Notes under the pieces: generated by a model
Seen by the model: only the letters and a program-made list of their open reading frames with translations
Database searches by the model: none
What the model was told of the DNA's origin: nothing
Assembly (NCBI GenBank): GCA_027081505.1
Contig: JALWKK010000088.1
Location: forward strand, 1 to 39,201
Direction of reading: 5' to 3'
From: Flavobacteriaceae bacterium
GTDB lineage: Bacteria > Bacteroidota > Bacteroidia > Flavobacteriales > Flavobacteriaceae
Length of the DNA stretch: 39,201 bases
Shown here: positions 6,490 to 34,603 of the stretch, one piece after another
Numbering within the stretch: position 1 is the stretch's first letter
Layout: each line of letters opens with the position of its first letter
Program-made: the position numbers and the translations under genes

Positions 6490-7242
6490 TTATTTTTTAA
6501 TAATTTTCTCTAAACAAGGTAAATACAATTTGAGGTCTTTTTTTATCATTGCAGTAAGTCCGTCTCCGGTTATGGTGGCTCCGGCAAGCGCATCAACTTC
6601 ATTATCGGTTTTATCTTTGTTTAAGGGGTCGTTGTTTCCTTTGACAATAGAAATACCTTTAAATTCGGTGCCTTTAAATATTTTTTCACCTTTAAAATCA
6701 TCCATAAAAAATCGTTCCTTTATGTTGGCTCCCAATCCGGGTGTTTCTCCTTTGTGGTCAAAAAATACGCCTTGTACTACATATTCTTTATCTAAGGCAA
6801 TATAACCCCAGACAGCGTCCCAAAGACCTTTTCCGCGCAGAGGGATGATATAAAAGGTTTTTCCTTCTTTTTCACCTATAAATAAAGGAAGTCTTCTTTC
6901 ATAATTTCCTTTTTTTGCCAGTACTTCCTCTTTTTTGATGTCAATCAAATAAGCATTGTTTTCTTCTGAGATATTATCACCTTGGCAAACCAATTGTTTT
7001 TTAATGTATTTTGAAAATTCAGATTCTACCTTTTTGGGAGGAATAAATGCAACATCTGTATCGCTTTGGTTATTATTAACACCCATTGCATATAAGATGT
7101 TTTGTTGTTTTTCAATACGCTTATTTTCTTCTATTTTTCCTTTTAAACCTTGTGCTACACCCGCTAACAACGAGCCAACAACCAAGACCATAATAATTGA
7201 AAAAAAGATAGTGTAGCTGTTTTTTTCTGTAAACTTTGTCAT
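6490..7242 (-). CDS. nqrC: Na+-translocating NADH:quinone reductase subunit C
   Basis: NqrC carries a covalently bound FMN in the electron path of the Na+-NQR. It has one N-terminal membrane helix (about 11-30) and an FMN-binding domain with GETPGLG (165-171) and the attachment motif AGAT (220-223). Thr223 is the expected phosphoester-linked residue, with Ala in place of the more usual Ser at the first motif position. The flavin would be attached by an ApbE-type flavin transferase, which is not encoded in this window. It starts immediately after nqrB. Confidence 0.97.
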   Translation of the reverse strand: MTKFTEKNSYTIFFSIIMVLVVGSLLAGVAQGLKGKIEENKRIEKQQNILYAMGVNNNQSDTDVAFIPPKKVESEFSKYIKKQLVCQGDNISEENNAYLIDIKKEEVLAKKGNYERRLPLFIGEKEGKTFYIIPLRGKGLWDAVWGYIALDKEYVVQGVFFDHKGETPGLGANIKERFFMDDFKGEKIFKGTEFKGISIVKGNNDPLNKDKTDNEVDALAGATITGDGLTAMIKKDLKLYLPCLEKIIKK

Positions 7243-22714: not shown

Positions 22715-23178
22715 CAAAAAATATTTAACTCGGTGCAAGCAAGTAAAATACGAATGGCAATTTCGTCACGGTTGGCAACTAATATTTTTTTGATTTTTAT
22801 ATGTTTCCTATTTTAATCAATTAATATACGGGTTTTCATTTTTGTAATTTCTAACAACAAATGCCAGAGCACTTTCTTAGATTTCGCCCATATTTTTTGA
22901 TTTTTTAAAATTGATGTCTTTAGTGAGTTGGAATAAATCACCTTTAAGTTGGTTTATTTTATCCGGCGATGATATAGTATCTTTTTTCATACCAATGTAA
23001 TAACTCTGAAAACCTAATGTGATTGCTTGTTGCTCGTTTTGCCATGAGTGAACGTTCTTCCCTTTGATATCGGTCAATAGATCCGGCTTGTAAAACGTTT
23101 AGTGTTATTTCTACCGGTTGGTTTTTTTTCTTTTAAACTTAGGTGTGAAAGTTACTAAAGAAAATTGAAACAAACAAT
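22715..23178. other. 464-nt gap with a possible gene remnant
   Basis: The stretch separates the nuclease-like gene from the Crp/Fnr gene. Apart from a 66-codon frame on the minus strand at 22877-23077 I see no gene, strong hairpin or promoter match. Scattered stop codons upstream of that frame suggest decayed DNA. Confidence 0.4.
22877..23077 (-). pseudogene. Possible remnant of a small protein gene
   Basis: A 66-codon frame that opens at TTG 23077, with no ATG start nearby and a stop about 24 nt further upstream. Its translation (containing AITLGFQSYYIGMKKD and LFQLTKDINF) looks like real helical protein and not random sequence. I do not recognise the family. It may be the C-terminal remnant of a longer gene. 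Confidence 0.3.
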
Positions 23179-23865
23179 TTACAAACCCTCGGCAATGTGA
23201 TGCAATTGATTGGGATTTATGATTTTAATTTTTTTGCCTGAAGTTTCTAAAAGACCTTCTTTTTTAAATTCCGATAGGATACGGATACAAGATTCTGTGG
23301 CGGTTCCTACTAGATTTGCAATATCTTCTCTGGATAGTGTAATGTTTAAATAATCTTCATTGTCTTCGCCAAAATTATTTTTTAGATGTAAAAGTGCTTC
23401 GGCTACTCGCTGTTTAACCGGTTTTTGAGACATATTTACAATTACGTCATCTGCTTCTTTAAGATCATTAGCCATATTTCTGAGTAGCTCTACGGTATAG
23501 GAAGGGTTGTTTTTAAGACTTTGAAGTATAAATTCTTTCGGAATAAAACAAACTTCCATATCGTTAACGGCAACTGCTTTTAAATTTGCCGGTTCTTGTG
23601 CTACAACAGAACGTTGACCCAACATCTCTCCGTTACTAACAAATTTTATAATTTGGTCTTTTCCGTTAGCACTTAGTTTTGAAAGTTTTGAAATGCCATA
23701 ACGCACACAGTAAACACCTTTTAAATATTCTCCTTCGTCAAAGATTACTTCACCTTTTTTAAAAGATTTCATAGATTTTCTACACGTTAGCTCCTTTAGC
23801 TCTTCTTCAGAAAAGGCACGCATAGCGTTAAACTTTTTTATTATACAACTTTCACATTTGCTCAT
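23179..23865 (-). CDS. Crp/Fnr family transcription regulator, probable oxygen or redox sensor
   Basis: A 228-aa regulator with a cyclic-nucleotide-type sensor domain (about 20-140), a long dimer helix and a C-terminal winged helix (SREDIANLVGTATESCIRILSEF). N-terminal Cys4 and Cys7 (CESC) with Cys28, plus Cys53 and Cys103 in the sensor, could hold an FNR-like Fe-S cluster, though the spacing differs from E. coli FNR. The recognition helix ATESCIRIL resembles the FNR type (ESVSR). It is divergent from ccoI, and FNR-type boxes occur at ccoI, ccoS and hemN, so it is the likely activator of the microaerobic genes here. Confidence 0.88.
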   Translation of the reverse strand: MSKCESCIIKKFNAMRAFSEEELKELTCRKSMKSFKKGEVIFDEGEYLKGVYCVRYGISKLSKLSANGKDQIIKFVSNGEMLGQRSVVAQEPANLKAVAVNDMEVCFIPKEFILQSLKNNPSYTVELLRNMANDLKEADDVIVNMSQKPVKQRVAEALLHLKNNFGEDNEDYLNITLSREDIANLVGTATESCIRILSEFKKEGLLETSGKKIKIINPNQLHHIAEGL

Positions 23866-23869
23866 ATGG

Positions 23870-23877
23870 CAAATTTA
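23870..23877 (-). promoter_or_regulatory. Candidate -7 element of the Crp/Fnr gene
   Basis: TAAATTTG on the minus strand matches TAnnTTTG and ends 5 nt before the start codon, which would give a nearly leaderless mRNA. A second exact match, TAATTTTG, lies at 23947-23940. The FNR-type box at 23896-23909 lies across the -33 region of the first and downstream of the second, so negative autoregulation is plausible. Confidence 0.35.
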
Positions 23878-23895: not shown

Positions 23896-23909
23896 TTGAT
23901 ATTTGTCAT
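23896..23909 (+). promoter_or_regulatory. FNR-type box upstream of ccoI
   Basis: TTGAT-ATTT-GTCAT fits the FNR consensus TTGAT-N4-ATCAA at 8 of 10 bases. Its centre lies 36.5 nt before the last base of the -7-like AACCTTTG (23932-23939), which puts the centre near -40, a class II activator position. The same distance is found at ccoS and hemN. Confidence 0.7.
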
Positions 23910-23965
23910 ATTTTATTATATGACTATCTTCAACCTTTGCAAAATTAGGTGTTAGAGCATTAATA

Positions 23966-26356
23966 ATGGATAAAACAACTTGCTATCATTGTGGTGATGT
24001 GTGCGAACGAGATACTGTTACGTATGACGGAAAACCGTTTTGTTGTAATGGGTGTAAAACTGTATATGAAATTTTTTCAGAAAACAATTTAACCTGTTAT
24101 TACGACTTGCAAGAAGCTCCCGGCACTACTCCTAAAGAAGTAGAAGGTAAATATAAATTTTTAGACAATGAAGATGTTGTAGAAAGGTTGGTAGCGTTTG
24201 ATGATGGCAAGAGCCGGATAGTAGATTTATACATTCCGACCATACATTGTAGTTCGTGCATTTGGGTATTGGAAAACCTTTCAAAACTACAACCGGCGGT
24301 GAGTACATCGCAAGTTAATTTTCCGAAAAAAACAGTTCGAATTGCGTTTTCTTCAAAAGAATTGTCCCTAAAAAATTTGGTTTTATTGCTTAGCTCTATC
24401 GGGTATGAGCCTTATATCTCTCTTGAAGATTATGATTCGGGAAAAAAAGCAGTTGATAGAAAACTTATTTACAAACTTGCTGTTGCCGGATTTGCATTCG
24501 GGAATATTATGTTTTTGTCGTTTCCAGAGTATTTTAATCCTAACGAAAACGATTTTTGGTTACTACGTTATAAACCGATATTTAGGTGGTTGATGTTTGC
24601 ATTTTCGGTTCCTGTTGTTTTTTATGCAGGGTGGGATTATTTTGTTTCGGCTTATAAAGGCTTGCGAGCAAGAATATTAAACATAGATGTGCCTATTGCA
24701 TTAGGTATTACCGTGTTGTTTGTAAGAAGTACTGTAGATATTATGCTTAATCTCGGTTCGGGTTTTTTTGATAGTTTATCCGGGTTGATTTTCTTTTTAT
24801 TAATCGGGAAATTTTTTCAGCAACGCACCTATTCCTTTTTGTCTTTTGAAAGAGATTATAAATCGTATTTTCCTATTGCGGTAACCCGAATAAAAAGAGA
24901 TAATGCTACTAAGGTTGAAGAAACCGTTCAAGTGTACGATATTAAAAAAGGAGATAGGATTTTAATTAGAAACCAAGAATTAATACCTGTTGACGGAATT
25001 TTAATTAGTGGTCATGCAGAAATAGATTACAGTTTTGTAACCGGTGAGTCGAAACCTGTAGAAAAGCAATCCGGCGACAAACTTTTTGCCGGCGGAAAAC
25101 AAATTGGAGGATTGCTGGAAATTGAAGCTGTACAAACCGTTGAGCAAAGCTATCTTACGCAACTTTGGAGTAACGATGCCTTCTTAAAAGACAAAGAATC
25201 TTCGTTTCAAAATTTAACCGACAAAATTAGCCAACGATTTACCATTGCAGTTTTAAGTATTGCAACTATTTCAACTATTTTTTGGTTGGTTGTAGATGCC
25301 GGTAAATCGTTAAATGTGTTTACGGCGGTTTTAATTATCGCCTGTCCGTGTGCTTTGGCTTTGGCTGCTCCGTTTACTTTAGGAAATATGCTCCGCATTT
25401 TTGGAAAGAAAAAATTTTATTTAAAAAATGCAAGTGTTATCGAGCGATTGGCAAAATCTTCGACACTAATTTTTGACAAAACAGGAACGATTACAACAAA
25501 TGTTTCTCAACAAATTACCTATTTTGGTGAATCTTTATTACCTGTCGAGCAACAACTCTTATTAACCTCTTTAAAAAGTTCTAATCACCCGTTAAGCAGA
25601 CAGTTGTATAACAAAATAAAAAATAAAGAAGAGTTGCAGTTAGACAGTTTTTCAGAAATCACAGGAAAAGGAATAGAAGCCTGCTATAAAAATTTGTGTT
25701 TAAAATTAGGGTCAGAGCGTTTTGTAAAAGGCACAACCTCTGAAGATAAGCAGCAAACAACAGTACACATTAGTTTTAACGGGGTGTATAAAGGATGTTA
25801 TGTTTTTTATAACCAATACCGTGACTCAATTCAAGATGTTTTTAGTCAATTAGCAAAGCATTATAAACTAATTGTTTTATCAGGAGATAACGAAGGAGAA
25901 AAAAACCGTTTAAAAAAACTTTTGCCTAGTAACGTATCATTACACTTTAATCAGTCGCCTCAAGATAAATTAGATTTTGTTCAAAAATTGCAAAATAAAG
26001 GAGATAAAGTTGTAATGATTGGAGATGGGTTAAACGATGCCGGAGCTTTAATGCAAAGCGATGTAGGTTTGGTGGTGTCTGAAGACATTAACGTATTTTC
26101 TCCTGCGAGTGATGGCATCATAGATGCTTCGGTTTTTAATTTGCTACCACGTTTTATTAGACTTTCCGGTAAAGCTGTTAAAATTATAAAATGGAGTTTT
26201 GTTTTTTCGTTTCTTTACAATGTTACCGGATTATATTTTGCGGTTACCGGACAGTTAACACCGGTAATTGCTGCTATTTTAATGCCGTTAAGTTCTATAA
26301 GTGTGGTGGTGTTTACTACTGTTGCAACAAACGCGATTGCAAAAAAGATTCGATAA
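23966..26356 (+). CDS. ccoI: Copper-type P1B ATPase CcoI/FixI for cbb3 oxidase assembly
   Basis: A heavy-metal P-type ATPase of 796 aa that probably exports copper towards the periplasm for the CuB centre of the cbb3 oxidase. The N-terminus has a Cys-rich domain (CYHCGDVC 6-13; CCNGCK 26-31) typical of FixI, then an HMA-like metal site (HCSSC 94-98). TGES is at 359-362, the transmembrane metal site CPC at 460-462, the phosphorylated DKTGT at 504-508 (Asp504), the HP motif at 541-542 and GDGLND at 686-691. It opens the cco cluster, with an FNR-type box upstream. Confidence 0.95.
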   Translation: MDKTTCYHCGDVCERDTVTYDGKPFCCNGCKTVYEIFSENNLTCYYDLQEAPGTTPKEVEGKYKFLDNEDVVERLVAFDDGKSRIVDLYIPTIHCSSCIWVLENLSKLQPAVSTSQVNFPKKTVRIAFSSKELSLKNLVLLLSSIGYEPYISLEDYDSGKKAVDRKLIYKLAVAGFAFGNIMFLSFPEYFNPNENDFWLLRYKPIFRWLMFAFSVPVVFYAGWDYFVSAYKGLRARILNIDVPIALGITVLFVRSTVDIMLNLGSGFFDSLSGLIFFLLIGKFFQQRTYSFLSFERDYKSYFPIAVTRIKRDNATKVEETVQVYDIKKGDRILIRNQELIPVDGILISGHAEIDYSFVTGESKPVEKQSGDKLFAGGKQIGGLLEIEAVQTVEQSYLTQLWSNDAFLKDKESSFQNLTDKISQRFTIAVLSIATISTIFWLVVDAGKSLNVFTAVLIIACPCALALAAPFTLGNMLRIFGKKKFYLKNASVIERLAKSSTLIFDKTGTITTNVSQQITYFGESLLPVEQQLLLTSLKSSNHPLSRQLYNKIKNKEELQLDSFSEITGKGIEACYKNLCLKLGSERFVKGTTSEDKQQTTVHISFNGVYKGCYVFYNQYRDSIQDVFSQLAKHYKLIVLSGDNEGEKNRLKKLLPSNVSLHFNQSPQDKLDFVQKLQNKGDKVVMIGDGLNDAGALMQSDVGLVVSEDINVFSPASDGIIDASVFNLLPRFIRLSGKAVKIIKWSFVFSFLYNVTGLYFAVTGQLTPVIAAILMPLSSISVVVFTTVATNAIAKKIR

Positions 26357-26366
26357 AATAAAAAAG

Positions 26367-26380
26367 ATGATAAATATCAT
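26367..26380 (+). promoter_or_regulatory. FNR-type box upstream of ccoS-ccoNO
   Basis: ATGAT-AAAT-ATCAT is a perfect palindrome with the FNR core TGAT-N4-ATCA. Its centre is 36.5 nt before the last base of TACTTTTG (26403-26410), an exact -7 match. It drives a second transcript start inside the cco cluster. Confidence 0.8.
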
Positions 26381-26402
26381 TTTTTGTACCTTGTGAGAAA
26401 TT

Positions 26403-26410
26403 TACTTTTG
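26403..26410 (+). promoter_or_regulatory. -7 promoter element of ccoS-ccoNO
   Basis: TACTTTTG is an exact match to TAnnTTTG, 20 nt before the ccoS start codon. A TTTT, not TTTG, lies 19 nt upstream, which suits an activator-dependent promoter. Confidence 0.65.
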
Positions 26411-26430
26411 TAAAAAGTATTCAGTTAGGT

Positions 26431-26619
26431 ATGAGTATTATTTATTTATTACTTTCAGTAAGCGTGGTTGTTGCCGTCGGTTTTTTTATAGCCTTTATTG
26501 TTTCGGTAAAAAAAGGGCAGTATGATGATGTTTACACGCCGTCTGTTCGTATGCTTTTTGAAGACGAACTTGTAGAAATTCAAGATTCCAGTATAACCAA
26601 TTCAGAAAAATCAAACTAA
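26431..26619 (+). CDS. ccoS: cbb3-type cytochrome oxidase assembly protein CcoS
   Basis: A 62-aa protein with one N-terminal membrane helix (about 2-26) followed by a short tail with the conserved KKGQYDDVYTPSVRML segment seen in CcoS/FixS. CcoS is needed for cofactor insertion into the cbb3 oxidase. Its stop is 2 nt before ccoNO, so the two are co-transcribed. Confidence 0.92.
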   Translation: MSIIYLLLSVSVVVAVGFFIAFIVSVKKGQYDDVYTPSVRMLFEDELVEIQDSSITNSEKSN

Positions 26620-26621
26620 TT

Positions 26622-28817
26622 ATGGAGGTACAACAATTTTATTACGATAATAAAATCGTTAAAAAGTTTATCTATGCCACAATATTATGGGGTGTAGTAG
26701 GAATGACCGTAGGGCTTATTTTGGCATTTATGTTTTTGTTTCCCAACATGACAGACGGTATTTCTTGGTTAAGTTTCGGGCGTTTGCGTCCGTTACATAC
26801 CAATGCGGTAATATTTGCCTTTGTGGGGAACGCCATCTTTGCAGGGGTTTATTATTCTACCCAACGATTGCTTAAAGCCAGAATGTTTAGCGATTTACTA
26901 AGCAATATTAATTTTTGGGGCTGGCAACTTATTATTGTAGCAGCCGCGATAACCCTACCTTTGGGGCTTACTACATCAAAAGAATATGCCGAGTTGGAAT
27001 GGCCTATCGATATTGCAATAGCTCTAGTTTGGGTAGCTTTTGGAGCAAACCTCATCGGTACTATGATAAAAAGAAGACAACGCCATTTGTATGTTGCAAT
27101 CTGGTTTTATATTGCCACATTTGTTACCGTAGCGGTTTTGCACATTATTAATAGTATGGAGATGCCGGTTAGTTTTTTAAAAAGCTACTCTGCTTATGCG
27201 GGGGTGCAGGATGCTTTGGTACAATGGTGGTATGGGCATAATGCGGTTGCATTTTTCTTAACAACACCCTTTTTAGGGTTAATGTATTATTTTGTTCCAA
27301 AAGCAGCTAACAGACCGATTTATTCATACAGATTATCTATCGTCCACTTTTGGTCATTAATATTTATTTACATTTGGGCAGGACCGCACCATCTGCTATA
27401 TTCAGCTTTGCCGGATTGGGCACAAAACTTAGGTGTAGCCTTTTCGGTTATGTTAATTGCTCCTTCGTGGGGTGGTATGATTAACGGATTACTTACACTA
27501 AGAGGTGCTTGGGATAAAGTAAGAGTAGATCCGGTATTGAAATTTATGGTTGTGGCTATAACCGGATACGGGATGGCGACTTTTGAAGGACCAATGCTTT
27601 CACTAAAAAATGTAAATGCAATCGCACACTTTACAGATTGGATTATAGCACACGTTCATGTAGGAGCACTAGCCTGGAACGGATTTTTAGCCTTTGGTAT
27701 GATTTATTGGCTTGTGCCTCGATTATTTAAAACCAAACTGTGGTCTGTAGCCTTAGCAAATGTCCACTTTTGGGTTGGTACCTTAGGAATTATTATGTAC
27801 GCATTACCACTGTATGTTGCCGGTTTTGTACAAGCATCTATGTGGAAACAATTTAACCCGGACGGGACTTTGGTTTATGGAAATTTCTTAGAAACCGTAG
27901 ATCAAATTATTCCTATGTACTGGATGCGTGCAATAGGAGGCACATTGTATATTGTAGGAATGTTTATTCTACTTTATAATATTGTATTAACCGTAAGAAA
28001 CGGTAGCAAAGTAACCGATGAACTGGCAGAAGCTCCAGCTTTAACCAAAGTAACCAAGCACAGAACAGGAAAAGAAGGCTACCACACTTGGTTAGAAAGA
28101 AAACCGGTTAGGTTTACCATCTATTCTACTATAGCAATTTTAATAGGAGGTATGGTGCAGATTATTCCTTCCTTAATCGTAGATGACTACATTCCTCAAA
28201 TATCAAGTGTAAAACCCTACACACCGCTAGAATTGGAAGGAAGAGATATATACATAAGAGAGGGATGTGTTGCTTGTCACTCACAAATGATTCGTCCTTT
28301 TAGAAGTGAAGTAGCACGGTACGGAGAGTATTCAAAAGCCGGAGAATATGTCTATGACCATCCGTTTTTATGGGGAAGTAAAAGAACCGGACCCGATTTA
28401 CACCGAATAGGAGGAAAATACTCTGATAACTGGCACTTTAACCATATGTATGACCCTCAAAGTACATCAGACGGCTCTATTATGCCACGTTATACTTGGT
28501 TGTTTGACAATAAAAAGCACGATCGATCTTTGATTCAGAAAAAAATGGAAGTTTTGGTAAGTTTAGGTGTGCCTTATTCTGAAGAAGAAATCGCAAATGC
28601 TGAAGAATCTATGGATAAACAAGCCAAGCAAATAGAAAAAAACCTGTACAACGATCCGGATTTTGCCAGTAATTATGAAGAAAACAAAAAATTGGCAGAA
28701 GAAAACGGAGAAGAGTTTGTTCCTATGAAAGATAGAGAAATAGTAGCATTAATTGCATACTTGCAAAGACTGGGTACCGATATTAAAGTTAAATCGGATG
28801 AAATATCCAAAAACTAA
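26622..28817 (+). CDS. ccoN: Fused cbb3-type cytochrome c oxidase subunits I and II (CcoNO)
   Basis: A 731-aa fusion of the catalytic subunit CcoN with the monohaem subunit CcoO, a form common in Bacteroidetes. The CcoN part (about 1-465) has the low-spin haem ligand His59 (PLHTN), CuB ligands His206 (WYGHNAV) and His256-His257 (GPHHLLY), and the haem ligands His344 and His346 (AHVHVG). The CcoO part has a membrane helix (about 498-520) and one haem c site, CVACH (549-553), with RPFRSE following. The joint lies in a hydrophilic linker near residues 460-490. Confidence 0.96.
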   Translation: MEVQQFYYDNKIVKKFIYATILWGVVGMTVGLILAFMFLFPNMTDGISWLSFGRLRPLHTNAVIFAFVGNAIFAGVYYSTQRLLKARMFSDLLSNINFWGWQLIIVAAAITLPLGLTTSKEYAELEWPIDIAIALVWVAFGANLIGTMIKRRQRHLYVAIWFYIATFVTVAVLHIINSMEMPVSFLKSYSAYAGVQDALVQWWYGHNAVAFFLTTPFLGLMYYFVPKAANRPIYSYRLSIVHFWSLIFIYIWAGPHHLLYSALPDWAQNLGVAFSVMLIAPSWGGMINGLLTLRGAWDKVRVDPVLKFMVVAITGYGMATFEGPMLSLKNVNAIAHFTDWIIAHVHVGALAWNGFLAFGMIYWLVPRLFKTKLWSVALANVHFWVGTLGIIMYALPLYVAGFVQASMWKQFNPDGTLVYGNFLETVDQIIPMYWMRAIGGTLYIVGMFILLYNIVLTVRNGSKVTDELAEAPALTKVTKHRTGKEGYHTWLERKPVRFTIYSTIAILIGGMVQIIPSLIVDDYIPQISSVKPYTPLELEGRDIYIREGCVACHSQMIRPFRSEVARYGEYSKAGEYVYDHPFLWGSKRTGPDLHRIGGKYSDNWHFNHMYDPQSTSDGSIMPRYTWLFDNKKHDRSLIQKKMEVLVSLGVPYSEEEIANAEESMDKQAKQIEKNLYNDPDFASNYEENKKLAEENGEEFVPMKDREIVALIAYLQRLGTDIKVKSDEISKN

Positions 28818-28832
28818 AAAGAAAAAAGAACA

Positions 28833-29033
28833 ATGTTAAAATTTGTAAAAGGAAATTTGGAAAATATAGATGGTGTAGAAGTATATCCCATCATCTCGTT
28901 ACTTATATTCTTTACCTTTTTTGTATTTCTTTTTTGGTGGGTATTTACCACCAAAAAAGAGTTTATAGATGAGGTTAGTAATATTCCTTTAGAAAAAGAC
29001 GAAAACGACCAAAACGACAACCAATTATTATGA
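28833..29033 (+). CDS. ccoQ: CcoQ-like small subunit of cbb3 oxidase
   Basis: A 66-aa protein with a single membrane helix (about 23-40, SLLIFFTFFVFLFWWVFTT) and a charged C-terminal tail with DEND and QNDN. Size, topology and place between ccoNO and ccoP identify it as CcoQ/FixQ, which stabilises the oxidase. It overlaps ccoP by 4 nt (ATGA). Confidence 0.85.
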   Translation: MLKFVKGNLENIDGVEVYPIISLLIFFTFFVFLFWWVFTTKKEFIDEVSNIPLEKDENDQNDNQLL

Positions 29034-29902
29034 AAACAACATCATCTTATTTACGAGTATTATTTTTTGTCATAGTTGCCTTTGTTTTATTTGAAGTAAC
29101 TATTGATTCGGGAGACCAATGGGCATTTCAAAAATATCCTATTATATGGGCTGTACTAGGGGTGTTAACGCTTTTTGCCGTAGCTATTGAAATTGCTGTT
29201 GAAGCGATGCGAAGTATTTTGTTTAGATCGCTCAAAGCCGAATCTAAAGAACGGTTTCTTCAACTCCAAAACGAAGCAAAACAAAACAATTGGTTTAACA
29301 AAACCTACCAAAAATTGGTAGGAAAAACCAAGCCTATTGAAGAAGAGTCGGAAATTGTTTTAGATCATAACTACGACGGAATTAGAGAGTTAGACAATCA
29401 ATTACCACCTTGGTGGGTATATATGTTTTATTTAACCATTATTTTTGCGGGAGTCTATTTAACCCGTTACGAAATTTTAGGAGCCGATGACACCCATACC
29501 GAGTATGAAAAAGAAGTTGCTCAAGCCGAAAAAGAAATTGCAGAATGGAAAAAAACAGCAAAAAATTTGGTAGATGTTAACACCGTAACACTCCTTACCG
29601 ATAAAGAAGATTTAGATAAGGGAAAAGCAATTTTTACAACGAGTTGTGTGGCTTGTCACAAAGCAGATGGTGGTGGAGGTATAGGTCCTAACTTAACCGA
29701 CGAATACTGGATACTGGGCGGTGGTATAAAAAATGTTTTTCAAACCATTTCTGAAGGCGGACGTGACGGGAAAGGTATGGTAGCCTGGAAAGGAGACCTA
29801 AAACCACTAGAAATACAACAAGTGGCAAGTTATGTTTTAAGCCTGCAAGGTACAACACCCGAAAACCCAAAAGAACCGCAAGGCGAAATTTGGAAAGAAT
29901 AA
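29030..29902 (+). CDS. ccoP: cbb3-type cytochrome oxidase subunit III, mono-haem form
   Basis: CcoP delivers electrons to the catalytic subunit. The 290-aa protein has membrane segments at about 7-24 and 37-58, then the conserved ELDNQLPPWWVYMFYLTIIF helix of CcoP (about 120-145, split here from its flanks). It has only one haem c site, CVACH (206-210), with Met250 as probable axial ligand, whereas proteobacterial CcoP has two. The C-terminus is Pro/Glu-rich. Confidence 0.94.
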   Translation: MKTTSSYLRVLFFVIVAFVLFEVTIDSGDQWAFQKYPIIWAVLGVLTLFAVAIEIAVEAMRSILFRSLKAESKERFLQLQNEAKQNNWFNKTYQKLVGKTKPIEEESEIVLDHNYDGIRELDNQLPPWWVYMFYLTIIFAGVYLTRYEILGADDTHTEYEKEVAQAEKEIAEWKKTAKNLVDVNTVTLLTDKEDLDKGKAIFTTSCVACHKADGGGGIGPNLTDEYWILGGGIKNVFQTISEGGRDGKGMVAWKGDLKPLEIQQVASYVLSLQGTTPENPKEPQGEIWKE

Positions 29903-29990
29903 AACTAACTTAGATATTAAACAATAGTTGTTTTTAGAGACTAACCTAACCAATATTAGCGTTTAATCTAAAAATAAAATAAAAACTATT

Positions 29991-31412
29991 TTGAAGCCTG
30001 AAGAGAACGAAAAGTTTAGAGACTCTATATCAACCATCACCAAAGAAGGAAAAAGAGCTTGGATATACCCTAAAAAACCAAAAGGAAAGTTTTACAATTA
30101 CCGCAAATTAGTAAGTTATGTATTACTTGCTTTCTTTTTAGTAGCTCCTTTCATCAAGATTAACGGAAACCAATTTTTAATGTTTAACGTTCTCGAAAGA
30201 CGTTTTAATATTTTTGGCGCTCCGTTTTGGCCACAAGATTTTCACATTTTTGTGATAATGATGATTATTGGGGTCGTATTTATAGTCCTTTTTACCGTTG
30301 CTTTTGGTAGAATATTTTGCGGTTGGATGTGTCCGCAAACCATTTTTATGGAAATGGTCTTTAGACGAATCGAATATTGGATAGAAGGAGATAGAGGAAA
30401 ACAAATAAAACTGGATAAACAACCCTGGAATGTAGAAAAGATTACAAAAAAAGGACTAAAATGGCTTATCTTTTTTGTTATTTCTTTTTTAATTGCAAAT
30501 GTCTTTTTGGCTTATTTAATCGGTGGTGATAGGCTCATTCAGTACGTTAAAGACGGACCAACCAGTCATACCGGAACACTTATTTCTTTATTAATATTTA
30601 CCGGTGTGTTTTATTTTATATTTGCGTGGTTTAGAGAACAAGTATGTATTATTGCGTGTCCTTACGGAAGATTGCAAGGCGTACTTCTAGACACCAAATC
30701 TATAATTGTAGCATACGACTATAAAAGAGGAGAGAGAGAATTAGGACGATCTAAATTTAGAAAAAATGAAAATAGATCAAAACTAGGAAAAGGAGATTGT
30801 ATAGATTGTAAGCAATGTGTGGTAGTATGCCCAACAGGAATCGATATTAGAAACGGTACACAACTGGAATGTGTAAATTGTACTGCCTGTATTGATGCTT
30901 GCGATTCTATAATGGAAAATGTAAAACTACCAAAAGGATTAATACGTTATGCAAGCGAAGAAAATATAGGAAAAGGGAAAAAGTTTACTTTCTCTACACG
31001 TTTAAAAGGATACACAGTTGTGTTGGTAATTTTAATTGGTGTATTAATCGGGATGTTATTTTTACGTAATGATATAGAAGCAGACATTCTTCGATTACCG
31101 GGACAACTTTACGAACATAAAGGAGAAGATATTATTAGTAATGTATTTACCTACAAACTTGTAAATAAAACTACCAGAGAAATAAAAAATATTAACTTTA
31201 AGCTGTTATCTCATAAAGGAACCATTAAAGTAGTAGGTCACAACACGTTTGAAGTACCTAAAGAAGGTCTTGCAGAAGGCACTTTGTTTATAGAAATTCG
31301 TAAAAAAAATTTAAAAAAGGATAAAGAAAAACTTAGAATTGGGGTGTATAGTAACGACCAACTTATAGAAACCACATCCACTACTTTTTTAGCACCTAGA
31401 AAGTTTAATTAA
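29991..31412 (+). CDS. ccoG: Cytochrome oxidase accessory protein CcoG (FixG-type ferredoxin)
   Basis: CcoG is a membrane Fe-S protein that supports cbb3 assembly, possibly as a copper reductase. The 473-aa protein has five or so hydrophobic segments, CGWMC (110-114), CIIAC (219-223), two 4Fe-4S motifs (Cys270, 273, 276, 280 and Cys294, 297, 300, 304) and a C-terminal Ig-like domain (about 365-470). The start appears to be TTG 29991: the family's RDSI and KRxWxxPKKPxG motifs follow closely and no ATG fits. It lies 88 nt after ccoP. Confidence 0.94.
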   Translation: MKPEENEKFRDSISTITKEGKRAWIYPKKPKGKFYNYRKLVSYVLLAFFLVAPFIKINGNQFLMFNVLERRFNIFGAPFWPQDFHIFVIMMIIGVVFIVLFTVAFGRIFCGWMCPQTIFMEMVFRRIEYWIEGDRGKQIKLDKQPWNVEKITKKGLKWLIFFVISFLIANVFLAYLIGGDRLIQYVKDGPTSHTGTLISLLIFTGVFYFIFAWFREQVCIIACPYGRLQGVLLDTKSIIVAYDYKRGERELGRSKFRKNENRSKLGKGDCIDCKQCVVVCPTGIDIRNGTQLECVNCTACIDACDSIMENVKLPKGLIRYASEENIGKGKKFTFSTRLKGYTVVLVILIGVLIGMLFLRNDIEADILRLPGQLYEHKGEDIISNVFTYKLVNKTTREIKNINFKLLSHKGTIKVVGHNTFEVPKEGLAEGTLFIEIRKKNLKKDKEKLRIGVYSNDQLIETTSTTFLAPRKFN

Positions 31413-31423
31413 ATAAACCTATT

Positions 31424-31870
31424 ATGAAAATAAATTGGGGAACCGGAATTGTAATTGCTATTGTAGCCTTTATATCATTTATACTTGTTATGGTTATTAT
31501 GATGAGTACCGATAAAAAATTTAACCATGATTTGGTTACACCCGATTATTATCAAAAAGAACTCGCCTACCAAGAAGAAATTGATGCAGAAAAAAATGCC
31601 AATGCAATGACTTCAAGAATTAAAGCAGAACACACACCCGAAGGAATTGTTTTAACTTTTCCTGAAGAGATGCACAATACCAATATAGAAGGCACAGTGT
31701 TCCTATACAGACCATCTAACAAGAAGCTGGATTTTAGCTTACCTTTAGTTTTATCCAACGCACAAATGCTCATACCTGAAAATCGCTTGTTAGATGGTCG
31801 ATGGAACATTACCGTAAGTTGGAAACAAAACGGTAAAAAATTTATGTTTAAGGATCAAATTTTCTATTAA
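31424..31870 (+). CDS. ccoH: FixH/CcoH family cbb3 assembly protein
   Basis: A 148-aa protein with one N-terminal membrane helix (about 5-27) and a periplasmic FixH domain. Landmarks are the LVTPDYYQKELAYQEEID segment and a C-terminal GRWNITVSWKQNGKKF. CcoH assists late cbb3 oxidase maturation. It lies 11 nt after ccoG and 2 nt before the TauE/SafE-like gene. Confidence 0.9.
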   Translation: MKINWGTGIVIAIVAFISFILVMVIMMSTDKKFNHDLVTPDYYQKELAYQEEIDAEKNANAMTSRIKAEHTPEGIVLTFPEEMHNTNIEGTVFLYRPSNKKLDFSLPLVLSNAQMLIPENRLLDGRWNITVSWKQNGKKFMFKDQIFY

Positions 31871-31872
31871 TT

Positions 31873-32586
31873 ATGTTTTGGTCCGCCCTTGTATTTGGAT
31901 TAATGGGTAGTTTTCATTGTATAGGAATGTGTGGTCCCATTGCTTTTATGCTTCCGGTCGATCGCAATAGTACATTAAAAAAAAATCTTCAAATAGGATT
32001 GTATCATCTGGGAAGAATTTTATCCTATAGTATTATTGGATTACTTTTCGGCTTTTTAGGCAAAGGTTTTTATCTGTTTGGTTTTCAACAACAATTGTCT
32101 ATAATTATTGGTTTGCTAATGATATTAATAGCATTTATTCCGTATAAAACAGTTGCCAAATATAATTTATCAAAACCTTTATTTCATATAATGTCAAAAA
32201 TTAAATCGGGCTTGGGAGTAGCATTAAAAAAGAAAACACCGGACACCTTTTTAACCATCGGTTTTTTAAACGGTTTTTTACCCTGCGGATTGGTTTATAT
32301 GGCAGTTTTTGGAGCTTTATCAACCGGAAATTCTTGGCAAGGAGCTTTGTATATGATAATTTTCGGGCTGGGAACCATACCATTAATGACAACGGCAATT
32401 TATCTCGGTAATTTTTTAAAAGGTAAAGTTCGCAGTTATATTACCGGAGCAATACCTTATGTAGTAGCTTTAATGGGTTTGTTGTTTGTACTTCGAGGAT
32501 TGGGACTGGGAATACCGTATCTTTCGCCCCCAAAAATGACACAACAAGTAGATGCTTCTTATAATTGCAACAAACCGGTTAACTAG
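31873..32586 (+). CDS. Sulfite exporter TauE/SafE-family membrane protein of the cco cluster
   Basis: A 237-aa membrane protein with about six helices. The N-terminal GSFHCIGMCGPIAFMLP motif and the second-half FLPCGLVYMAV motif mark the family branch often found beside ccoGH and thought to help copper or haem-protein maturation; the substrate is not known. It closes the cco cluster. Its last 8 bp overlap the convergent hemN gene. Confidence 0.88.
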   Translation: MFWSALVFGLMGSFHCIGMCGPIAFMLPVDRNSTLKKNLQIGLYHLGRILSYSIIGLLFGFLGKGFYLFGFQQQLSIIIGLLMILIAFIPYKTVAKYNLSKPLFHIMSKIKSGLGVALKKKTPDTFLTIGFLNGFLPCGLVYMAVFGALSTGNSWQGALYMIIFGLGTIPLMTTAIYLGNFLKGKVRSYITGAIPYVVALMGLLFVLRGLGLGIPYLSPPKMTQQVDASYNCNKPVN

Positions 32587-33949
32587 TTGTTGAAAAGAGC
32601 TTTATGTCGGGTTTGTTTTGTTGTAACTTTAGATCAAAAGCCATACAAATATTTCTAACAAACGGTCTTCCTTTTTCGGTTACTTTTAAACGATGCGGAT
32701 ATAAAACAACCAACCCATCTTGTTGCATTTCTTCTAACCGAGATAACACAACCGAAATATCTTTAATGAAAGTTTCTTTGGTGTTCCAGAAAGTTTCCAT
32801 TTTACACATAATATTTAGTATGTGCCTTCTAACAACCAAATCTTCTCGGTCTAAGATGTGTCCTTTGTATATAGGAAAAACACCGTCTTCAACTAATTTT
32901 TGATACTCTTCAAGCCCTTTTACATTCTGCCCGAAAGCATACCAACTATCACCCATTGCAGACACTCCCAAACCTATCATTAACTGTGTTTTAGAATAGG
33001 CGTAACCCATAAAATTACGATGTAAATTACCTGTTTTCATCGCTTGGTATAATAAATCGGTTGGCAAAGCAAAATTATCCATGCCAATCTCCACATAACC
33101 CAACTTTTGTAATAAAGATTTTCCGGTTTCGTATTGTTCTTTTTTTTCTTGGGGCGAAGGCAAATCTTCAAGTTTAAAACCACGTTGTTCGTTTCCTTTT
33201 ACCCAAGGAACGTGTACATAACCGTAAAAAGCTATGCGGTCGGGGAGCAACTCTTTTGTTTTAGAAATGGTGTTTATAATATCTTGCGTAGTTTGAAACG
33301 GTAATCCGAAAACTAAATCATGTCCTACCGAGTTAAACCCTGATTCTCTAGCCCACCGTGTTACATTATTTACATTTTCAAAAGGTTGAATTCGATGAAT
33401 GGCTTTTTGAACCCTTAGGTTATAATCTTGCACACCAAAACTCACCCGTTTAAAACCTAATTTAGAAAGCGTTTGCAAATGTTCTTTCGTTGTATTGTTG
33501 GGATGACCTTCAAAACTTAAAACTATATTTGGCGAAGAAGATGCGTGATGAAATAATTCTGCAATGAGTAGTTTTAAATTTTCAGAAGAAAAAAAAGTTG
33601 GTGTGCCGCCTCCCAAATGTATTTCTCTAATAATGGGTTTACCGGAAAATAAAGCAACATACATTTTCCATTCCTTAATAAGTGAAGATATATAAGGAAT
33701 CTCTACATCATGTCGTTTTGTAATACGCTTATTATAACCACAAAAAGTGCAAAGATGCTCACAGAACGGAAGATGGATGTATAAACTAATGCCCTGACTA
33801 ATATTACTTTCGTTGAAACTTTTAACCAATAATTTTTTCCATTTTAAAAGCGAAAAAGAATCATCATCCCAATAAGCAACCGTAGGGTAACCTGTATAGC
33901 GAGGTCCGGCAACATCGTATTTGGTTATTAAGTTAGTTTGTGTTTTCAT
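32579..33949 (-). CDS. hemN: Oxygen-independent coproporphyrinogen III oxidase
   Basis: HemN is a radical-SAM enzyme that makes protoporphyrinogen IX without oxygen. The cluster motif is Cys63-x3-Cys67-x2-Cys70 (CEHLCTFC), preceded by LYIHLPF. HLGGGTPTF and the N-terminal RYTGYPT segment are typical of true HemN and distinguish it from the haem chaperone HemW. The 456-aa length is normal. It converges on the cco cluster and has an FNR-type box upstream, so haem supply and cbb3 oxidase are probably induced together when oxygen falls. Confidence 0.95.
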   Translation of the reverse strand: MKTQTNLITKYDVAGPRYTGYPTVAYWDDDSFSLLKWKKLLVKSFNESNISQGISLYIHLPFCEHLCTFCGYNKRITKRHDVEIPYISSLIKEWKMYVALFSGKPIIREIHLGGGTPTFFSSENLKLLIAELFHHASSSPNIVLSFEGHPNNTTKEHLQTLSKLGFKRVSFGVQDYNLRVQKAIHRIQPFENVNNVTRWARESGFNSVGHDLVFGLPFQTTQDIINTISKTKELLPDRIAFYGYVHVPWVKGNEQRGFKLEDLPSPQEKKEQYETGKSLLQKLGYVEIGMDNFALPTDLLYQAMKTGNLHRNFMGYAYSKTQLMIGLGVSAMGDSWYAFGQNVKGLEEYQKLVEDGVFPIYKGHILDREDLVVRRHILNIMCKMETFWNTKETFIKDISVVLSRLEEMQQDGLVVLYPHRLKVTEKGRPFVRNICMAFDLKLQQNKPDIKLFSTTS

Positions 33950-33964
33950 CTTCTTCTAAGGGGA

Positions 33965-33972
33965 TAAAAGTA
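33965..33972 (-). promoter_or_regulatory. -7-like element of hemN
   Basis: TACTTTTA on the minus strand differs from TAnnTTTG only in the last base. It ends 16 nt before the start codon. Confidence 0.5.
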
Positions 33973-33994
33973 GTACTTGTATATAAATTAAAAA

Positions 33995-34008
33995 ATGATA
34001 TTTATCAA
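33995..34008 (-). promoter_or_regulatory. FNR-type box upstream of hemN
   Basis: Read on the minus strand it is TTGAT-AAAT-ATCAT, 9 of 10 bases of the FNR consensus. Its centre (34001.5) lies 36.5 nt from the last base of the -7-like element at 33965, the same distance as at ccoI and ccoS. Confidence 0.78.
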
Positions 34009-34066: not shown

Positions 34067-34603
34067 ATGAACACAATATTAGGAATAGGCTCTCGTATTA
34101 ATCATCCCGAATATGGAAAAGGAGTAGTAACCAATGTAACTGCATCGATGTATTGGGTTACTTTTATGGAAAACGGACTGGAAACCATCCCCGTTGACGA
34201 TACTTTTGAAATAATTGAAGCTGTTGAAGATGAGGTAGATACCGTAAGTTTTTATGAAATAGAAAAAAGCCTTCGCGAAATCTTAAAAAAGTGGAGCGAT
34301 GTAAGTGAAATAGTGCATCTTGCCGATAAGTGGCGTGGTGGAACGATGATACTAAAGCCAAAAGATGTTACGTTGTCTTCAAAAGAAATACCTATTAATA
34401 CGTTTTTTCATAAAATAGTAATGCTCAGAGACAGACTACGGGTTATGGAGCAAAAAATAAATTCCAGTAAATTACTCGAAGACCAAGATAAAGTAGATTT
34501 ACAACAGTACATTACCCGTTGTTACGGTAGTTTAACCACTTTTAATGTGCTGTTTAAAAATAAATCGCAACACTTTGTGGGAGATAGTAGCAAGAAAAAA
34601 TAA
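34067..34603 (+). CDS. Conserved protein of unknown function with N-terminal beta-barrel-like domain
   Basis: A 178-aa cytoplasmic protein. Residues 1-50 (IGSRINHPEYGKGVVTNV and YWVTFMENG) resemble the small Tudor/KOW-like barrels at the start of CarD or the end of UvrD. The rest is charged and helical, with a DKWRGGTMILKPKD motif and a C-terminal helix hairpin. It seems to be conserved in Flavobacteria, but I know no function. It is divergent from hemN, 117 nt away, with a -7-like TAATTTTA at 34036-34043. Confidence 0.8.
   Translation: MNTILGIGSRINHPEYGKGVVTNVTASMYWVTFMENGLETIPVDDTFEIIEAVEDEVDTVSFYEIEKSLREILKKWSDVSEIVHLADKWRGGTMILKPKDVTLSSKEIPINTFFHKIVMLRDRLRVMEQKINSSKLLEDQDKVDLQQYITRCYGSLTTFNVLFKNKSQHFVGDSSKKK

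Follow-up and report, generated by a model that had tools for sequence, protein, structure and literature searches.

Results

Three Fnr-type boxes in a cbb3 oxidase locus

Contig JALWKK010000088.1 of a Flavobacteriaceae bacterium (assembly GCA_027081505.1), here referred to as the window and analysed at its full length of 39,201 nucleotides (nt), carries a cbb3 oxidase gene cluster in which a Crp/Fnr regulator gene, fnr, is divergent from ccoI. Three Fnr-type boxes lie upstream of ccoI, ccoS-ccoNO and hemN, each followed by an octamer resembling TAnnTTTG, the -7 element of Bacteroidetes promoters. The genes and promoter features are listed below, with promoter positions relative to predicted transcript starts; ccoI is named from its place within the cbb3 cluster.

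23179..23865, minus strand: fnr, Crp/Fnr regulator of 228 amino acids (Pfam cNMP_binding and HTH_Crp_2), divergent from ccoI
23870..23877, minus strand: candidate -7 element of fnr, TAAATTTG, 32.5 nt from the box shared with ccoI; the start codon follows 4 nt on
23896..23909, plus strand: Fnr-type box of ccoI, TTGATATTTGTCAT; predicted centre -41.5; box kept in orthologous promoters
23932..23939, plus strand: -7 element of ccoI, AACCTTTG; 5 of 6 fixed bases, no T at -12
23966..26356, plus strand: ccoI, copper-type P-type ATPase (E1-E2 ATPase; heavy-metal subfamilies below NCBIfam cutoffs)
26367..26380, plus strand: Fnr-type box of ccoS-ccoNO, ATGATAAATATCAT; perfect 14-bp palindrome; predicted centre -41.5
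26403..26410, plus strand: -7 element of ccoS-ccoNO, TACTTTTG; 6 of 6 fixed bases
26431..26619, plus strand: ccoS, 62 amino acids (read from the sequence and named by position, without a family scan)
26622..28817, plus strand: ccoNO fusion, cbb3 oxidase subunits I/II (PRK14485, above cutoff)
29030..29902, plus strand: ccoP (FixP_N)
29991..31412, plus strand: ccoG (TIGR02745, above cutoff)
31424..31870, plus strand: fixH (family match)
31873..32586, plus strand: DsbD_2 membrane protein of the cbb3 cluster (family match)
32579..33949, minus strand: hemN, oxygen-independent coproporphyrinogen III oxidase (TIGR00538, above cutoff)
33972-33965, minus strand: -7 element of hemN, TACTTTTA; 5 of 6 fixed bases, final A
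34008-33995, minus strand: Fnr-type box of hemN, TTGATAAATATCAT; predicted centre -41.5; box kept in orthologous promoters

The original prediction rested on these boxes and octamers, and a recount of the sequence bore out both their coordinates and a distance of 36.5 nt from box centre to last octamer base in all three cases. Each box matches the FNR-type palindrome TGAT-N4-ATCA, with a G in the right half at ccoI (GTCA). Among the octamers only that of ccoNO is a perfect TAnnTTTG, those of ccoI and hemN each departing from it at one of the 6 fixed bases. In the window as a whole, 1.2% of positions carry an octamer with at least 5 of these bases, and the expected count for three boxes sharing one of ~40 offsets is ~7e-5 by our own arithmetic, a figure that is higher in AT-rich intergenic DNA and refers to an offset chosen post hoc. 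The string TGATNNNNRTCA occurs 8 times in the window, compared to a shuffle mean of 2.37, and 2 of 100 shuffles reach 8. The window alone is thus suggestive of a fixed spacing, and it is the comparative data that settle its reality.

Two more Fnr-like palindromes are present in the window, at 6935-6948 and 23065-23076; neither is among the fixed-gap matches. We also considered whether the hemN box serves the divergent gene at 34067 and rejected this, the nearest octamer seen (TAATTTTA) lying 41.5 nt from the box centre by hand count.

The spacing is conserved in relatives

With CcoNO as the query, 590 stretches of DNA were matched, of which the best 80 named loci were kept; most of these are from Flavobacteriaceae, the remainder coming from elsewhere in Bacteroidota and from a few further phyla. 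After leaving out loci in which the gene was absent, the gene start was unmatched or upstream DNA was missing, we had upstream regions for 61 ccoI, 78 ccoNO and 26 hemN genes. An octamer with at most one deviation from the 6 fixed bases was found at exactly 36.5 nt from a TGAYNNNNRTCA box in 36 of the 61 ccoI, 53 of the 78 ccoNO and 16 of the 26 hemN regions, while 50 dinucleotide shuffles of the same regions gave means of 0.02, 0.02 and 0.00, respectively (maximum of 1). Of the neighbouring distances, 35.5 nt was seen in 3 ccoI and 3 ccoNO regions and 37.5 nt in 2 ccoI regions but no ccoNO region; the hemN regions had neither.

No site at 35.5, 36.5, 37.5 or 58.5 nt was found in 18/61 ccoI, 15/78 ccoNO and 10/26 hemN regions, and most of these site-less regions at ccoI (15/18) and ccoNO (12/15), along with 5/10 at hemN, lie outside Flavobacteriaceae in our own grouping. 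Loci were assigned manually, going by record title and identity. Three loci with Flavobacteriales or Flavobacteriaceae in the title (L069, L070 and L085) were counted outside the family, and three that have only Bacteroidetes in theirs (L037, L048 and L063) were counted inside it. Also outside are five loci titled Melioribacteraceae, Ignavibacteriaceae, Ignavibacterium, Calditrichota and Neomarinimicrobiota. We rejected 58.5 nt as a second true distance in Flavobacteriaceae, as the octamer found there is, among the rows listed, TAGGTATG just before ccoS. These cases do not represent tandem boxes, because the distance to the TAGGTATG octamer is measured from the same box; genuine tandem boxes were tallied separately.

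We also scanned 30 genomes (the window's own and 29 relatives) with the gap between box and octamer left free from 10 to 38. Of the 150 matches listed, gap 23 (corresponding to 36.5 nt) accounts for 62. Gap 12 follows with 12 and gap 24 with 8, then gaps 22 and 25 with 5, and every other gap has 0 to 5. The gap-12 matches are probably coding, with near-identical strings that recur (TGATTATCATCATGC...).

Equal spacing might still reflect chance, or the shared ancestry of unconstrained promoter DNA, considering that the window offers three sites only, two with imperfect octamers, and that related genomes are not independent. However, in many genera this length is common to three promoters that are unrelated and whose spacer sequences differ, and the free-gap scan gives a length peak. 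In our view these data already refute this explanation, and we attach next to no weight to it. The spacing rule first put forward is strongest in Flavobacteriaceae, where most orthologous promoters have both the box and the spacing, with a single box at exactly 36.5 nt in 45/51 ccoNO, 35/43 ccoI and 14/19 hemN regions. It does not extend to the whole phylum: tandem boxes occur elsewhere, and a sister family, here referred to as f5, has other fixed spacings.

Promoter anatomy places the boxes at the predicted class II position

When the ccoI and ccoNO promoters were aligned at 36.5 nt, a consensus of AAAn(A)TGAYnnnnRTCATnTTTT emerged. A T adjoins the right half-site in 36 of 36 ccoI promoters and, with a single exception, in the 53 ccoNO promoters, and the A-rich tract before the box is mirrored by a T-tract after it; in the hemN promoters (n = 16), both flanks are weaker. 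Columns -29 to -13 hold at most 0.61 bits in any of the three promoter sets, indicating that the length of the spacer is kept and not its sequence. At the first octamer base (-12), T has a frequency of 0.98 in ccoNO and 0.94 in hemN promoters, in rows that had been preselected for at least 5 of 6 octamer bases. As in the window, 33 of the 36 aligned ccoI promoters have G, A or C at this position, which suggests a weaker or more activator-dependent promoter. No conserved TTG was found at -33 in the aligned promoters.

In Escherichia coli, -41.5 is the classical class II position and the standard activating position. A start-site map of Flavobacterium psychrophilum, described in the main text of PMC9723704, has TAnnTTTG at -12 to -5, and the box centre is therefore predicted to lie at -41.5. 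The boxes had originally been put "near -40", at the class II position measured against the Bacteroidetes promoter; the class holds, and the sharper value is -41.5. On these grounds the predicted architecture is that of a class II promoter, exact and widely conserved. The same source describes strong induction of cbb3 in F. psychrophilum under oxygen limitation, with haem enzymes induced too; the strings "crp", "tga" and "palindrom" do not appear in its main text.

The sites form a genome-wide set

The window's own genome assembly comprises 2.12 Mb and is 79% complete. The fixed-gap pattern has 7 perfect matches in it, two in the window and five elsewhere, the latter preceding the following genes:

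Site (i): a cytochrome c lipoprotein, then a fasciclin protein and Sec-dependent NosZ (TIGR04246, above cutoff)
Site (ii): a cytochrome c protein, then a COX1-family protein, an AAA ATPase and a protein matching no family
Site (iii): a 2-oxoacid:acceptor oxidoreductase (TIGR03710, above cutoff); on the other side of the box, a divergent gene for a 4Fe-4S ferredoxin
Site (iv): a second fasciclin lipoprotein
Site (v): a small outer-membrane barrel protein (weak match, below the Pfam cutoff)

By context, we read the genes at site (ii) as norCBQD and nor-like. At site (iii), one box (L152:948-1020) may serve two divergent promoters, that of the 2-oxoacid oxidoreductase with a gap of 23 and that of the 4Fe-4S ferredoxin with a gap of 22. 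At L154, a fasciclin gene and a further lipoprotein gene under a perfect Fnr site are divergent from genes that, by eye, resemble those of a NiFe hydrogenase.

Allowing one mismatch gave 25 matches in all, compared with 9 for the reversed control. This set includes hemN, because its octamer ends in A, and is mixed, with PPK2-like and coenzyme A-transferase genes among others and some matches inside open reading frames. In addition, the gene for a group III truncated haemoglobin, recognised by a PDB match to 2ig3 (E of 5e-13) and without a Pfam or NCBIfam match, follows a 35.5-nt site. The proposed regulon of the ccoI, ccoS-ccoNO and hemN sites is not local: the set is genome-wide and takes in nos, nor-like and 2-oxoacid oxidoreductase operons.

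The sites co-occur with the adjacent fnr gene

Within this incomplete genome, the gene at 23179-23865 is the sole match to the ortholog profile at an E value of ≤1e-20, with 8 weaker candidates scored. We next compared site numbers with the best Fnr match in 118 genomes of the order, using a strict pattern that requires T at -35 but leaves -12 free. Genomes with a match below 1e-75 hold 259 strict sites in 141.5 Mb (39 genomes, 38 with a site), those between 1e-75 and 1e-60 hold 95 in 79.8 Mb (20 genomes, 18 with a site), and those with weaker matches hold 14 in 17.7 Mb (7 genomes, 4 with a site). Sites per Mb are thus ~10-fold more frequent with a strong Fnr match than without one (1.83 in 39 genomes versus 0.17 in 52), in a raw comparison that is uncorrected for genome size, base composition and kinship; the reversed-pattern control gave 0.04 and 0.03. 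Over all 118 genomes, there are 379 fixed-gap sites and 9 reversed-pattern ones.

Gene order points the same way: in 33 of the 80 loci, as in the window, fnr and ccoI are divergent and a perfect box lies between the two. In the window (23863-23877, minus strand), the four bases CCAT separate the fnr -7 element TAAATTTG from the ATG, and the predicted fnr mRNA may be leaderless. Measured on the fnr side, 18 of 35 shared boxes have a -7 element 22.5 or 23.5 nt away. The distance is 36.5 nt in four loci, namely L019, L020, L022 and L025, the last of which has both. Bound Fnr would then block fnr at 22.5 or 23.5 nt and activate it at 36.5 nt, that is, autoregulation could be of either sign. Control by the adjacent Crp/Fnr gene, as originally proposed, agrees with both co-occurrence and gene order, and its binding part is a prediction from sequence.

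The Fnr protein has an invariant set of four cysteines

Of 43 Fnr sequences scoring >100 bits, including that of the window, four non-orthologs (L027, L076, L081 and L086) were left out; these lack the N-terminal cysteines and C53, and three of the four also lack C106. In the 39 aligned orthologs, C4, C7, C53, C106, E191 and R195 are invariant, while C28 is not conserved and C193 is variable too. The recognition helix of the window Fnr reads GTATESCIR and contains E191 and R195.

Pfam, an AlphaFold2 model and a structure match all give the window protein the CRP/FNR fold with a C-terminal helix-turn-helix. The model has a mean predicted local distance difference test score of 92.2 and places C53 in strand 50-56 and C106 in strand 103-109, which we take to be neighbours in the cyclic nucleotide (cNMP)-type roll. 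The [4Fe-4S] oxygen sensor FNR of Aliivibrio fischeri and E. coli (PDB 5e44) is alike in fold, with 27% identity and a template modelling (TM) score of 0.82. In FNR numbering, the cluster ligands are C20, C23, C29 and C122, and the recognition residues E209, S212 and R213. In the alignment with A. fischeri FNR, C4 and C7 form the CxxC near the N-terminus, C106 corresponds to the distal ligand C122, and E191 and R195 correspond to E209 and R213. A cluster held by C4, C7, C53 and C106 would be the natural reading.

Variant architectures and alternative readings

Outside Flavobacteriaceae, tandem boxes 22 bp apart (-63.5 and -41.5) precede ccoNO in 9 of 27 regions, versus 1 of 51 inside, and no other distance between boxes is as common at ccoNO as 22 (13 cases under looser criteria; the next has 4). 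The tandem-box loci are L064, L066, L067, L074, L080, L081, L085, L092 and L094, several with a mismatch in the left half of the downstream box. Family f5 was represented by 13 genomes of three genera (L176-L188), which are close kin and not independent, along with further loci L156, L157 and L162. Its fnr ortholog adjoins ccoI, and the box is kept.

Several observations weigh against oxygen-dependent class II activation by the adjacent Fnr as a general rule. The module was not found outside Flavobacteriaceae in 11/27 ccoNO, 15/18 ccoI and 5/7 hemN regions, nor inside in 5/51, 8/43 and 5/19, respectively. In the window Fnr, N13 occupies the position of FNR Cys29, so that only three of the four classical cysteine positions are filled, the invariant Cys53 in its beta-strand being extra; I194 aligns with Ser212; and the best NCBIfam FNR model, NF008365, scores 104.2 bits against a cutoff of 228. 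By its cysteine set and curated score, the predicted protein is best described as an FNR relative outside the strict FNR definition. The f5 ortholog lacks C4, C7, C53 and C106 in 13/13 genomes, with GTATESAIR kept; it is not cysteine-less, other cysteines being present and, in 4/13 (L181, L182, L184 and L185), one standing a residue before the C106 position. The f5 -7 element of ccoI lies 56.5 or 57.5 nt from the box (13/13), corresponding to -61.5/-62.5, a class I position. At f5 ccoNO, the -7 element lies 24.5 nt (13/13) and also 46.5 to 48.5 nt (13/13) from boxes, at -29.5 and about -52. The 19 f5 genomes in the 118-genome sample still hold 90 strict 36.5-nt sites elsewhere by our own sum. 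Moreover, the 52 genomes with no Fnr match at 1e-20 still hold 11 strict sites in 65.7 Mb (9 genomes with a site; 9 sites in 54.0 Mb when genomes of ≤1 Mb are left out), and therefore another regulator can use such sites. Finally, in PMC8510549 the Crp/Fnr homologs encoded by one Flavobacteriales genome are classed in a MalR-like, carbon-sensing group.

The sites in match-less genomes bear on a different reading, in which the boxes are read by another protein of the Crp/Fnr family, such as a DNR/NnrR-type nitric-oxide sensor, and the neighbouring fnr is incidental. DNR/NnrR sensors use a similar palindrome, many genomes have several Crp/Fnr genes, and nor-like and nos operons are among the targets. 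Nevertheless, we consider this unlikely: cbb3, ccoI and hemN are typical oxygen-response targets, the window's genome, at 79% completeness, has a single match to the ortholog profile at an E value of ≤1e-20, fnr faces ccoI across the box in 33 of 80 loci, and cbb3 responds to oxygen limitation in F. psychrophilum (main text of PMC9723704).

The f5 ccoNO box at 24.5 nt, which overlaps the core promoter, and the -7 elements of fnr at 22.5 or 23.5 nt could instead mark repressor sites, from which Fnr would keep cbb3 and hemN off until released by a signal. This is very improbable as an account of the Flavobacteriaceae ccoI, ccoNO and hemN promoters, which have a predicted centre at -41.5, a fixed length and no conserved TTG at -33, and cbb3 is induced by low oxygen in a relative.

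Discussion

We consider it very probable that the promoters of this locus are class II promoters at which an Fnr-type activator works with the Bacteroidetes housekeeping sigma factor to express low-oxygen genes. At low oxygen, a dimer of the 23179-23865 gene product would bind AAAnATGAYnnnnRTCATnTTTT centred at -41.5 and abut polymerase on TAnnTTTG (-12 to -5), allowing recruitment without a good -33 element. An Fe-S cluster on C4, C7, C53 and C106 would sense oxygen. One regulator would thereby switch on oxygen-independent haem synthesis together with the cbb3 oxidase and the copper ATPase that serves as its assembly factor; at other sites in the genome, it would do the same for the 2-oxoacid:ferredoxin oxidoreductase and for the reduction of nitrous oxide and nitric oxide.

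The class II FNR/CRP promoters of E. coli are similar in their box, in the kinds of targets and in the 29.5 nt from box centre to the first -10 or -7 base (-41.5 to -12). They differ in that here polymerase would sit on the Bacteroidetes TAnnTTTG, no TTG is conserved at -33, and the conserved operator at ccoI and ccoNO has a symmetric A/T flank (AAAA...TTTT). The Anr, FnrL and FixK regulons of Proteobacteria likewise place cbb3, hemN or denitrification genes under one FNR-type regulator, but in another phylum and promoter class; here, ferredoxin-linked 2-oxoacid oxidation and fasciclin lipoproteins join the set. The best structural match to the window Fnr is CrpPg of Porphyromonas gingivalis (2gau; 33% identity, TM score of 0.88), also a Bacteroidetes Crp/Fnr protein, which unlike the window protein has Y at the C53 position and L at the C106 position of the alignment. 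CrpPg is reported as a cyclic AMP-independent regulator of virulence genes in the main text of PMC12040651, where the terms "class II" and "transcription start" do not appear. The words Flavobacteri and Cytophaga are absent from the available text of PMC1274295, and among the titles and abstracts listed by our searches of an open-access library, none reports a spacing rule or activator geometry for the Bacteroidetes promoter.

A broader history can be proposed tentatively. Bacteroidota may have their own oxygen-sensor branch, with a cluster on C4, C7 and C106 in which the beta-roll C53 replaces FNR Cys29 and a strict -41.5 rule operates with the phylum's odd sigma factor. Promoters would have evolved stepwise, from tandem boxes at -63.5/-41.5 outside Flavobacteriaceae to a single box inside, with f5 losing the four cysteines and shifting to -61.5/-62.5 at ccoI and to -29.5 and about -52 at ccoNO. 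The cysteine set C4, C7, C53 and C106 is testable in one protein preparation.

A fixed -41.5, measured relative to the TA (-12/-11) of TAnnTTTG, would mean that the class II contact geometry is common to phyla despite differing promoter elements. The spacing also provides a low-background search rule for oxygen-controlled genes in a large, little-studied bacterial group, and it allows such genes to be predicted across flavobacteria, including the Sec-dependent (clade II) nosZ for nitrous oxide removal.

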